Shown one piece after another: positions 15,805 to 18,798 of a DNA stretch of 33,489 bases (its first letter is position 1; the number at the start of each line of letters is the position of its first letter). Source of the stretch: Candidatus Methylomirabilota bacterium (lineage in GTDB: Bacteria > Methylomirabilota > Methylomirabilia > Rokubacteriales > CSP1-6); the NCBI GenBank assembly GCA_036001065.1, contig DASYUQ010000236.1:1-33489 (forward strand), given 5' to 3'. The position numbers and the translations under genes were made by a program. The notes beneath the pieces were generated by a model, which made no database searches, was not told the origin of the DNA, and saw nothing but the letters and a program-made list of their open reading frames with translations.

Positions 15805-17196
15805 ATGGCCGTGACGAAGGTCGTCATACCGAAGTTATCAGAGGCTATGGAGACGGGGAAGATCATCAAATGGTTAAAGAAGGAAGGGGACAGGGTCCAG
15901 GGTGGCGATATCTTAGCCGAGATCGAGACGGACAAGGCCGATGTCGAGATGGAGGCGTTCGGCGCCGGCGTGCTCCGGAAGATCCTGGTGCAGGCCGGTG
16001 ACCGCGCGCCCGTCGGCGCGCTGATCGCCGTCATCGCCGAGGCCGACGAGGACATCGGGGGCGTGCTCAGCCAGGCGCCGAGCCCCGCCGCCGCGCCGGC
16101 GGTCGCCTCCGCACAGCCGGCGCCGGCGGCGACCATGTCGGACCGCCCGGCGGGGGTGCCGCCGCAGCCGCGCAGCGAAGATCCAGCCGCGCGCACGCCG
16201 GCACCGTCCGTGGGACACGCGGCACCAGGGGCAGGCGCCGTTGCTCAGAAAACCCCACTTCGCCCCGAGGCCGCCCCCGTCATGGCCGGCCCCCCACCTG
16301 CGGGGCCGTCCGTCTCGCATGGTCGGGTGAAGGCCTCTCCGCTGGCCAAAAAGATCGCCGCCCAGGCCGGCGTGGATCTGAAGTTGATTCAGGGCTCGGG
16401 GCCCGGCGGCCGCATCATCCGCCGCGACGTCGAAACGGCGGCCAGCCGGGCGCCGGCGGCGCCGACGGTGGCGCGTCCGGCCGTCGCCGCGCCGGCCGTC
16501 GGCATGCCGGTAGCCGAGTACGAGGACCGTCCGCTCTCCCCGATGCGGGCCACGATTGCCAAGCGGATGGCGCTGGCCAAGGCCCCGGTCCCGCACTTCT
16601 ACGTCACCTCGGAGGTGGCGATGGACCGGGCCTGGCCGCTGCGGGAGGAGTTGAACGCGCTCGAGGGCCAGCCGAAGATCTCGGTCAACGACCTGATCGT
16701 CCGGGCCTGCGCCATCGCGCTGCTCCAGCACCCCGGCGTGAACGCCTCCTTCCAGGGCGAGACGTTCCGCATCCACCACCGGGCGCACATCGGCATCGCG
16801 GTCGCGCTGGACGATGGCCTCATCACCCCGGTGCTCCGCGACTGCCAGGCGAAGTCGCTCGGCCAGATCGCCGTCGAGTCGCGCGATCTCATCGAGCGCG
16901 CGCGGGCGCGCAAGCTGCGGACCCAGGAGCTTTCGGGCGCGACGTTCTCCATCTCCAACCTCGGCATGTTCGACGTCGCGGACTTCTCGGCCATCATCAA
17001 CCCGCCGGAAGGAGCCATCCTCGCGGTGGGCTCGGTGCGGCGGGTGCCCGTGGTCGAGGGCGAGGCCGTCACCATCGGCCGGCGGATGTCGATGACGATC
17101 TCCTGCGACCACCGCGTCATGGACGGCGCCATGGGCGCGCGCTTCCTGCAGGACGTGAAGCGGCTGCTGGAAGAGCCGCTGCGGTTGCTCGTATGA
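15805..17196 (+). CDS. pdhC: Dihydrolipoyl acyltransferase (E2) of the PDH complex
   Basis: 463 residues. A single lipoyl domain (1-80) carries the modified lysine K44 in ETDKADVEME. A long Ala/Pro linker (about 88-170) leads to the peripheral subunit-binding domain (about 172-210: ASPLAKKIAAQAGVDL, then GSGPGGRIIRRDVE). A second short linker and the catalytic domain follow, with H436 and D440 in CDHRVMDG. The first about 40 codons use TTA three times plus ATA and TCA, codons that are rare in the neighbouring genes. The catalytic core forms the complex scaffold; PdhAB and LpdA bind through the middle domain. Confidence 0.95.
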   Translation: MAVTKVVIPKLSEAMETGKIIKWLKKEGDRVQGGDILAEIETDKADVEMEAFGAGVLRKILVQAGDRAPVGALIAVIAEADEDIGGVLSQAPSPAAAPAVASAQPAPAATMSDRPAGVPPQPRSEDPAARTPAPSVGHAAPGAGAVAQKTPLRPEAAPVMAGPPPAGPSVSHGRVKASPLAKKIAAQAGVDLKLIQGSGPGGRIIRRDVETAASRAPAAPTVARPAVAAPAVGMPVAEYEDRPLSPMRATIAKRMALAKAPVPHFYVTSEVAMDRAWPLREELNALEGQPKISVNDLIVRACAIALLQHPGVNASFQGETFRIHHRAHIGIAVALDDGLITPVLRDCQAKSLGQIAVESRDLIERARARKLRTQELSGATFSISNLGMFDVADFSAIINPPEGAILAVGSVRRVPVVEGEAVTIGRRMSMTISCDHRVMDGAMGARFLQDVKRLLEEPLRLLV

Positions 17197-17204
17197 GCGC
17201 CGCG

Positions 17205-17340
17205 CGGGGCCGAGGCCGCGGGGGGTCCGCCGACCACGAGCTTAGGCGCGGAGTCACCGTTCGCGTTTTCCATACAGCGCGGTGCGCGTCGTCCCTCTCG
17301 GCGCGAACGGGTCGGCGGACCCCCCGCGGCCTCGGCCCCG
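17205..17340. repeat. 136-bp element with 31-bp perfect inverted repeats
   Basis: The arms at 17205-17235 and 17310-17340 are exact reverse complements (CGGGGCCGAGG ... CGACC). The 74-nt centre holds a nested 9-bp inverted repeat, CCGTTCGCG (17257-17265) and CGCGAACGG (17302-17310). It fills the pdhC/lpdA junction. It has the shape of a non-autonomous palindromic element or a very strong RNA hairpin. No target-site duplication is obvious. Confidence 0.85.
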
Positions 17341-17415
17341 TGCCTCTCTCCTTCGTCATCCGTCGCCGCTCTGACGGCATCCGTGCTTCCGTCGCGCAGC
17401 AGCCGCACGAGCGTC

Positions 17416-18798
17416 ATGGCAGCGCATAAGGTCGACGTCGCCGTCATCGGCACCGGACCCGGCGGGTACGTCGCGGCCATCCGCTGCGCACAGCTCGGGC
17501 TCAGCGTCGCCGCGGTCGAGGACGACCGCCCCGGCGGCGTCTGCCTCAACTGGGGCTGCATCCCGACCAAGGCGCTCTTGCGTAACGCCGAGGTCGTCCA
17601 CCTCTTCGAGCGCGCCGCGGAGTTCGGTATCCGCGTGCAGGGCTTTCAGGCCGACTACGCGGAGGCCGTGAAGCGGAGCCGCCAGGTCGCCGACCGGATG
17701 GCCAAGGGCGTGGAGTTCCTCTTCCGGAAGAACAAGATCACGCTGCTGCCCGGCACCGGCACGCTCCGGAGCCCGACGACCGTCGAGCTCAAGGGCGTGC
17801 GGGGGACCGAGACCATCGAGGCGCGGGCGCTGATCCTAGCCACGGGCTCGGAGCCGAAGTCGCTGCCCGGCGTCGGCATCGACGAGAAGGCCGTCCTCTC
17901 GTCCAACGGCGCCGTGAGGCAGGAGCGCGCGCCGAAGTCGCTCGTCGTCATCGGCGCCGGCGCGGTCGGCGTCGAGTTCGCCGACGTCTACGCCTCCTAC
18001 GGCACCCAGGTGACGATCCTCGAGGCGCTGCCGCGCCTCGTCCCGGTGGAGGACGAGGAGGTCTCGAGCCAGCTCGCGCGCTCGTTCGGTCGCCGCGGCA
18101 TGACCCTCAAGACCGGCGTGAAGGTGACCTCCGTCAAGCCCGGTGGCGCCGGCGTCGTCGTCGAGACGGACGGCGGCCGGTTCGAGGCCGAGCAGATCTT
18201 GATGGCGGTAGGGCGAGCCGCGAAGGTGAAGGGGCTGGGGCTGGAAACGCTCGGTGTCGCGCTCGATCGCGGCTTCGTGAAGGTGTCGCCGCGGATGGAG
18301 ACGTCGGTCCAGGGCGTCTACGCCATCGGCGACATGGCCGGCCCGCCGCTCCTCGCCCATAAGGCGATGGCCGAGGGCGTCGTCGCCGCCGAGGCCATCG
18401 CGGGCCGGGAGCCGCGGCCGATCGACTATACCAACGTGCCGTCCTGCACCTACTGTCGCCCCCAGATCGCCTCGATCGGGCTGACGGAAGCGCGGGCAAA
18501 AGGGAACGGCCGTGAGATCACCGTGGGCAAGTTCCCGTTCACCGCCAGCGGCAAGGCCGCGGCCCTCGGCGACACGGAAGGGTTCGTCAAGGTCGTCGCC
18601 GACAAGGCGACCGGCGAGATCCTGGGCGTCCACATCCTGGGGCCCGAAGCGACCGAGGTGATCCACGAGTTTGCCGTCGGACGCACCCTGGAGGCGACAC
18701 TCGAGGAGATCATCCACACCATTCACGCGCATCCGACGCTGTCCGAGGCGGCGCTGGAGGCGACGCTCGGCGCCCTCGGCCAGGCCATCCACATCTAG
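17416..18798 (+). CDS. lpdA: Dihydrolipoyl dehydrogenase (E3)
   Basis: 460 residues from ATG 17416; a GTG at 17383 would add 11 residues ahead of the FAD-binding strand and is less likely. The flavoprotein reoxidises dihydrolipoamide on PdhC. The FAD loop is IGTGPGGYVAA (11-21). The redox-active disulfide is C43/C48 in GGVCLNWGCIPTK. The NAD-binding loop is GAGAVGVEFA, and the dimer-interface catalytic pair is H439/E444 in HPTLSE. No convincing Shine-Dalgarno is visible, and the 136-bp inverted-repeat element separates the gene from pdhC. Confidence 0.96.
   Translation: MAAHKVDVAVIGTGPGGYVAAIRCAQLGLSVAAVEDDRPGGVCLNWGCIPTKALLRNAEVVHLFERAAEFGIRVQGFQADYAEAVKRSRQVADRMAKGVEFLFRKNKITLLPGTGTLRSPTTVELKGVRGTETIEARALILATGSEPKSLPGVGIDEKAVLSSNGAVRQERAPKSLVVIGAGAVGVEFADVYASYGTQVTILEALPRLVPVEDEEVSSQLARSFGRRGMTLKTGVKVTSVKPGGAGVVVETDGGRFEAEQILMAVGRAAKVKGLGLETLGVALDRGFVKVSPRMETSVQGVYAIGDMAGPPLLAHKAMAEGVVAAEAIAGREPRPIDYTNVPSCTYCRPQIASIGLTEARAKGNGREITVGKFPFTASGKAAALGDTEGFVKVVADKATGEILGVHILGPEATEVIHEFAVGRTLEATLEEIIHTIHAHPTLSEAALEATLGALGQAIHI

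Follow-up and report, generated by a model that had tools for sequence, protein, structure and literature searches.

What is the perfect palindrome that separates pdhC from lpdA in a Rokubacterial pyruvate dehydrogenase (pdh) operon? We analyzed the surrounding 33,489 nucleotides (contig DASYUQ010000236.1 of assembly GCA_036001065.1; hereafter, the window). The genes next to the palindrome scored as pyruvate dehydrogenase E1 alpha, E1 beta, E2 and dihydrolipoyl dehydrogenase, with the E2 score slightly under the curated cut-off (437 versus 445 bits). The features of the junction are as follows.

15805..17196, plus strand: pdhC (E2, dihydrolipoamide acetyltransferase), with 8 nt between its stop and the perfect stem
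17202..17204 with 17341..17343, plus strand: stem extension of three more pairs, the innermost a G-T wobble
17205..17235, plus strand: 5' stem arm, 31 of 31 positions paired with 17310-17340; sequence private to the locus except at its inner end
17232..17238, plus strand: motif GACCACG, whose GACC pairs with GGTC at 17310-17313
17236..17309, plus strand: conserved centre (loop), 74 nt
17257..17265, plus strand: left half of a nested 9-bp pair, with its partner at 17302-17310; not conserved in the family
17268..17276, plus strand: mid-loop motif TTCCATACA, whose counterpart in other copies is TTCCCAT or GGCTGGGCTCCATC
17305..17313, plus strand: conserved motif GAACGGGTC
17310..17340, plus strand: 3' stem arm, partner of 17205-17235
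17416..18798, plus strand: lpdA (E3, dihydrolipoyl dehydrogenase); start backed by the aligned N-termini of relatives

The palindrome and its site in the pdh operon

As the preliminary description of this DNA had it, the two 31-nt arms pair without mismatch around a 74-nt centre. No longer perfect inverted repeat within 150 nt exists anywhere in the window, and 60 first-order Markov shuffles of the window gave none longer than 15 bp. The stem had also been called very stable, which is right for the sequence: the predicted RNA fold of the palindrome is -117.4 kcal/mol, compared with -75.0 +/- 4.3 kcal/mol for shuffles (z = -10). The 9-bp inverted pair reported inside the centre is present but is not a feature of the family described below; among 76 independent copies, the longest perfect stems inside loops were no longer than in shuffled loops. 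The observation that lpdA alone stands more than 200 nt from its pdh neighbour was borne out: pdhC stops at 17196 and lpdA begins at 17416, a gap of 219 nt, against 3 nt between pdhB and pdhC and 70 nt between pdhA and pdhB.

We compared the pdhC-lpdA site across 50 genomes, of which 48 had a usable gene on the contig. The element was present in five (8-11 nt from the stop codon in G000, G001, G033 and G006, and with different flanks in G062), and a sixth genome, G012, carried a shorter variant. Where the element was absent, the spacer was 15 nt or less, overlaps included, in 28 of the 48 genomes, none of them from a close sister species, and took other forms in 14. This comparison indicates that some genera carry the element and most lack it, and that in the carriers it is old enough for different genera to have it in common. 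A search for a clean empty site in close species yielded partial, rearranged or relic sites (L119, L132, L006 and L099). The spacer of one further genome (L149, G031:C284) contains a head-to-tail repeat with a unit of about 70 nt and neither core motif of the element.

An effect of the element on lpdA expression is plausible, because the predicted -117 kcal/mol hairpin would sit between pdhC and lpdA whatever its origin. The insertion would have pushed lpdA to its present distance from pdhC and would place a strong hairpin in the intercistronic RNA.

A Rokubacterial family with a common centre and private stems

When the palindrome region was compared with its own genome by BLAST, further copies were found that shared the centre and differed in their arms. 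The palindrome is thus not a unique occurrence, which had been named as a reason to abandon the earlier reading, and the copies sought through shared ends proved to share the centre instead. Four entries of the first BLAST list (L019-L022) lacked the core and were left out. We then used two covariance models, R1, built from 17 copies and applied at an E-value of 0.01 or better, and R2, built from 18 copies, most of which belong to a different loop subfamily, and applied at 0.001 or better. Within the family Candidatus Rokubacteria, R1 matched 29 of 57 genomes and R2 matched 30, for a union of 31. Across 95 genomes of the phylum, 23 were matched at an E-value of 0.0001 or better, all in the family of the window, and none of the 38 genomes from outside that family was matched. 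These genomes are fragmented metagenome-assembled genomes (MAGs), and the E-values of the models are rough. The genome of the window contained at least 24 R1 and at least 33 R2 matches; G045 contained at least 48, and all 60 scored candidates in G062 were matches. Because about 60 candidates were scored per genome, these counts are lower bounds.

The draft state of the genome (239 contigs) could favour an assembly artefact, and a palindrome may also arise by chance. We regard the probability of either as negligible, since an inverted repeat of 31 bp exceeds anything in the shuffled windows, the same family recurs in 31 of 57 genomes, and four genomes carry it at the same site. The family matches, the comparison of pdhC-lpdA sites and the shuffles together rule out both explanations.

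A pattern scan of named genomes returned at least 111 stretches, 80 of them with titles. Among those listed, the stretches with a clear stem came from Candidatus Rokubacteria or Rokuibacteriota, with the exception of one contig from a MAG labelled Chloroflexi. Pattern matches in Streptomyces, Brachybacterium and others lacked the stem among the matches listed, and some Rokubacterial matches scored low in a quick stem test that permits few bulges. The Chloroflexi-labelled contig (L258, VBKA01000011.1, from MAG CF_170 of the same soil series) holds a genuine-looking copy with a stem and is probably a wrongly binned Rokubacterial contig. In viral contigs, one pattern gave three matches, all without a stem, and a second pattern gave none; single copies searched against plasmids and against phages gave no match. 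No Rfam 15 family matched at curated or relaxed thresholds, and a sub-threshold match to a miRNA precursor was set aside because it fitted the GC-rich stem only.

We defined the anatomy of the element from 113 copies in 29 genomes, which represent part of the R1 matches (19 of 24 in G000 and 22 of 29 in G001). Every copy carried both core motifs within two mismatches, with exact GACCACG in 103 and exact GAACGGGTC in 83. The loop measures 65-82 nt and is closed by GACC/GGTC. The arms, re-measured with bulges allowed, span 14-67 bp with a median of 38 bp, and their sequences differ from copy to copy, whereas the loop is conserved. Watson-Crick pairs accounted for 3,930 of 4,276 aligned pairs (92%); the remainder comprised 151 transition mismatches and 195 others, 102 of which fell at two positions beside the GACC/GGTC collar. 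The loops formed three subfamilies of 32, 16 and 63 copies, and GGCTGGGCTCCATC at mid-loop was almost invariant in the first of these. Two sites with collar motifs and long stems (L068, G031:C35; L129, G038:C30) contain a different 65-nt loop, possibly representing a fourth subfamily.

The palindrome is one copy of a Rokubacterial family of dispersed non-coding hairpins, each combining a common centre with a private, near-perfect stem and mostly located behind stop codons. In Rfam 15 and the open-licence literature on repeats in Rokubacteria, we found no description of the element, nor did Rfam 15 and the open-licence literature yield any family with a common loop and a private stem. Palindromic repeats dispersed through genomes have been described before, as have template-switch hairpins, and within the sources searched the combination of shared loop and private stem is undescribed.

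Placement, strand preference and the evolution of the stem

To describe the genomic context, genes were called by a codon-score script. Among 106 copies with both neighbours, 56 lay between two plus-strand genes (++), 22 between two minus-strand genes (--) and 28 between convergent genes (+-), and none lay between divergent genes. Counting one copy per orthologous site (n = 72) gave 34, 15, 23 and 0, respectively. In the ++ context, the stem started a median of 11 nt past the stop codon and ended 72 nt before the next start; overall, the median spacers beyond the 3' side of the element were 72 nt (++) and 44 nt (--), against 11 and 30 nt at its 5' side, with an error of 1 nt because minus-strand copies were called one base short at the gene end. 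Arms overlapped the 3' ends of 16 upstream and 6 downstream genes and no gene start. Neighbouring genes encoded ABC transporters, tRNA modification enzymes, an aminotransferase, a histidine kinase, acetyl-CoA carboxylase and others. A common function of the neighbours was rejected, as 19 of 20 neighbour proteins in G000 had Pfam matches, mostly to unrelated families; a conserved segment adjoining the element was likewise rejected, as flank matches of non-orthologous copies revealed no shared neighbour segment.

The transition mispairs of the stems were unevenly distributed between the strands. Read on the plus strand of the window, there were 109 A-C and 42 G-U mispairs, which is equivalent to 109 G-U mispairs on the minus strand against 42 on the plus strand. 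The ratio of A-C to G-U was similar in ++ (56:21), -- (24:10) and +- (28:10) contexts. When the outer arms of 76 independent sites were counted, the numbers were 49 against 22, with 29 sites leaning in this direction, 6 in the other and 41 in neither. Folded RNA or DNA tolerates a G-U pair better than an A-C pair, and folding of the minus strand therefore appears to matter, regardless of the direction of neighbouring genes. Because the bias is similar in all three contexts, it is explained neither by template switching nor by transcription of the neighbours.

One explanation of the placement is a hairpin at the 3' end of sense mRNA, acting as a terminator, an RNase barrier or an RNase III site that uncouples pdhC from lpdA. 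Copies lie just past stop codons and are missing from divergent spacers, and the predicted fold of -117 kcal/mol also speaks for such a role. However, neither side of the element carries the U-tract of an intrinsic terminator (T content and T-runs past the arm were no higher than in a control stretch), and the wobble bias favours the antisense strand. The absence of a U-tract and a strand bias opposite to the pdh mRNA make this explanation less likely; moreover, the role requires no sequence-conserved loop, and the 28 relatives with tightly spaced pdhC and lpdA manage without the element. We consider a sense-strand hairpin decidedly unlikely.

The main alternative is a structured non-coding RNA transcribed from the minus strand, in which the stem would serve as the closing helix, the loop would bind a protein, an RNA or a ligand, and pairing would be maintained by selection. 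Besides the strand bias, seen also in the independent sites, this explanation draws on the unpaired conserved motifs of the loop, such as GGCTGGGCTCCATC in 32 copies, and on strong covariation. Double changes occurred in 17 of 26 pairs in a first alignment and 15 of 22 in a second, far above both controls in both alignments, and none of 500 shuffles was as good; a covarying helix of the kind expected for structured non-coding RNA is thus present. G-U pairs were nearly absent from the first alignment (2 of 436 cells). The larger space on the 3' side of the element would also leave room for a minus-strand promoter. In one test with 15 loop-column shuffles, the minus-strand consensus folded more stably than every shuffle in two of the three subfamilies, and the plus strand did so in none. 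Yet when the test was repeated with 100 shuffles, one alignment for both strands and a different scoring scheme, the loop stayed open on both strands except for two collar pairs in two subfamilies, with weak pairs in the third and small differences between strands; no inner loop structure was consistently supported. Other observations also weigh against a minus-strand RNA: several convergent copies have less than 10 nt on both sides, so that no outside promoter fits the spacer, the copies flank unrelated genes, a genome may contain 60 or more of them, which is unusual for an RNA gene, and no Rfam family matched at threshold. Template switching can yield the same covariation signal. On balance, a minus-strand RNA seems somewhat unlikely.

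How the stems change was examined in 14 orthologous copies from the sister species G000 and G001, covering 264 stem pairs beyond the conserved inner portion. Of these, 172 were the same in both species, 40 differed on both sides yet retained pairing, 39 differed on one side, and 13 differed on both sides and had lost pairing, some of the last probably from register shifts. Two-sided paired changes thus made up 40 of the 92 changed pairs, and two sites showed five and seven such changes with no one-sided change. Divergence per site was 27% in the arms, 19% in intergenic flanks, 16% in loops and 10% at third positions of conserved codons; the idea of arm hypermutation was softened accordingly, as intergenic DNA also diverges, if less than the arms. 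Excerpts of PMC8794818 and PMC8604942 describe template switching that copies one arm onto the other and so produces paired double changes quickly. The two-sided paired changes fit this process, since selection acting on single bases should not match the neutral pace; the 39 one-sided changes are also consistent with ordinary selection.

Complementarity extended past the measured arm ends beyond that of partner-swapped controls (0 of 200 as high), with a contribution from arms broken by indels. In another single case, G000:C33, both stop codons of a convergent gene pair fall within the stem. In the counterpart in G001, the minus-strand gene ends in CGCGCTAG, which is stem-like, and the plus-strand gene in AAGCGGTAG, which is not, and the end of the plus-strand gene in G000 therefore looks rewritten from the other side. 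The G001 counterpart retains about 15 nt that read as a reversed core start, with no R1 match; this remnant is a single case and possibly reflects a loop inversion. The site pair L093/L077, likewise a single case, may be inverted.

Relation to known repeats and the preferred reading

Integron attC sites lie behind genes, form hairpins and are recombined with a preference for one folded strand; simple sites carry RYYYAAC and GTTRRRY at the stem ends. The element might accordingly be an attC or a different single-strand substrate for recombination, with an integron integrase or a Y1 (REP-type) transposase moving it. By analogy, its position at gene 3' ends and its preferred folded strand would resemble attC sites, and 24 of 57 Rokubacterial genomes had integron integrases (TIGR02249) that scored above the curated cut-off (G000:C94:12134-13078, three loci in G062, and loci in G038, G048, G052 and others). 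However, these integrases do not track the element, occurring in 13 of 31 genomes with it and 11 of 26 without it (odds ratio 0.98), nor do Y1 transposases (3 of 31 and 8 of 26). Seven integrase loci (L331-L337) contained one copy of the element and no attC-like R-box pair by a simple pattern. Unlike attC sites, the element has variable stem ends, shows no RYYYAAC or GTTRRRY among its shared motifs, and has its conserved bases at the loop. A recombination substrate of this kind appears highly improbable.

REP/BIME sequences and REPINs with their RAYT transposases are dispersed extragenic hairpins with strand asymmetry, as the element is. It differs from them in being several times longer, in conserving the loop instead of the stem foot, and in lacking an association with Y1 transposases: a Y1 transposase occurred in 3 of the 31 carrier genomes, and G001, with at least 29 R1 matches, had none. 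According to excerpts of PMC2229807, ERIC, YPAL, Correia (NEMIS) and RPE elements resemble it in being about 100-170 bp long, dispersed, mostly intergenic and folded into a long stem-loop with a possible effect on mRNA. Terminal inverted repeats are common to the copies of most of those families (PMC2229807, in part), whereas copies of this element have only the centre in common; the terminal inverted repeats typical of MITEs were not found, as the arms differ between copies. Because its ends are private to each copy, neither a terminal signature nor a target duplication can be defined.

Most comparable copies in G000 and G001 were at the same sites, no movement was seen, and a search for partner enzymes that covered Y1 transposases and integron integrases identified none; mobility is therefore argued from dispersal, presence and absence at sites, and patchy distribution. 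The element had been interpreted earlier as palindromic and non-autonomous, a fair description in view of the lack of any apparent coding role, the many dispersed copies and the sites with and without it; taken as a whole, the earlier interpretation is partly supported. We favour a REP/MITE-like element based on the dispersed copies, their patchiness by genus, their occurrence in tandem and inverted pairs, the unrelated neighbours and the exclusion from promoters. That it is a non-autonomous REP/MITE-like hairpin of Rokubacteria, upheld by template switching, has in our judgement a roughly even chance of being correct.

Under the REP/MITE-like reading, the stem would be a structural requirement and not a sequence signal. 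Template switching during replication would be the main process keeping it perfect, by copying one arm onto the other, and may also draw the neighbouring gene-end sequence into the stem. The centre would be recognised by a putative factor in the folded minus strand of the window. Most probably, the element seldom spreads, is tolerated nowhere but downstream of genes and, once there, is passed on at the same site over long periods. The template-switch hairpins in the excerpts of PMC8794818 and PMC8604942 are likewise reported to have homogenised arms, perfect stems and two-sided changes that lack intermediates. Those cases concern individual RNA genes or short inverted repeats, whereas the process proposed here would act on a whole dispersed family and draw gene ends into its stems.

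A bolder version would make the element a new class, in which a conserved loop rides on any host-derived perfect stem, rebuilt from flanking gene ends through template switching by the replication machinery, and a putative dedicated factor recognises the minus strand in its folded form, whether RNA or single-stranded DNA. We offer this speculatively and think it rather unlikely; if true, the neighbours of such a hairpin would write its stem. Hundreds of copies and matched sites in sister species provide a test bed in which compensatory stem changes made stepwise by selection can be compared with those made in one step by template switching. The family also cautions that mutation can produce covariation, a signal that on its own usually serves as proof of a functional RNA. 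For Rokubacteria, the family represents a genome-wide repeat at gene ends.

Some copies occur in more complex arrangements. L046:579-808 (G001:C51) and L012:1-143 (G000:C122) each have, beside a full copy, tandem repeats of the element's 3' half with a period of 65-66 bp, and at L046 a second full copy lies nearby in inverted orientation. Another palindromic repeat, also dispersed and with a GGGGGCCTCGACGGCCCCCTCCGA-like core, is found in intergenic regions of G000 and G001 (L019, L002, L090 and L324) and of G054 (L182), and in one case it occupies a site where the hairpin element is missing.
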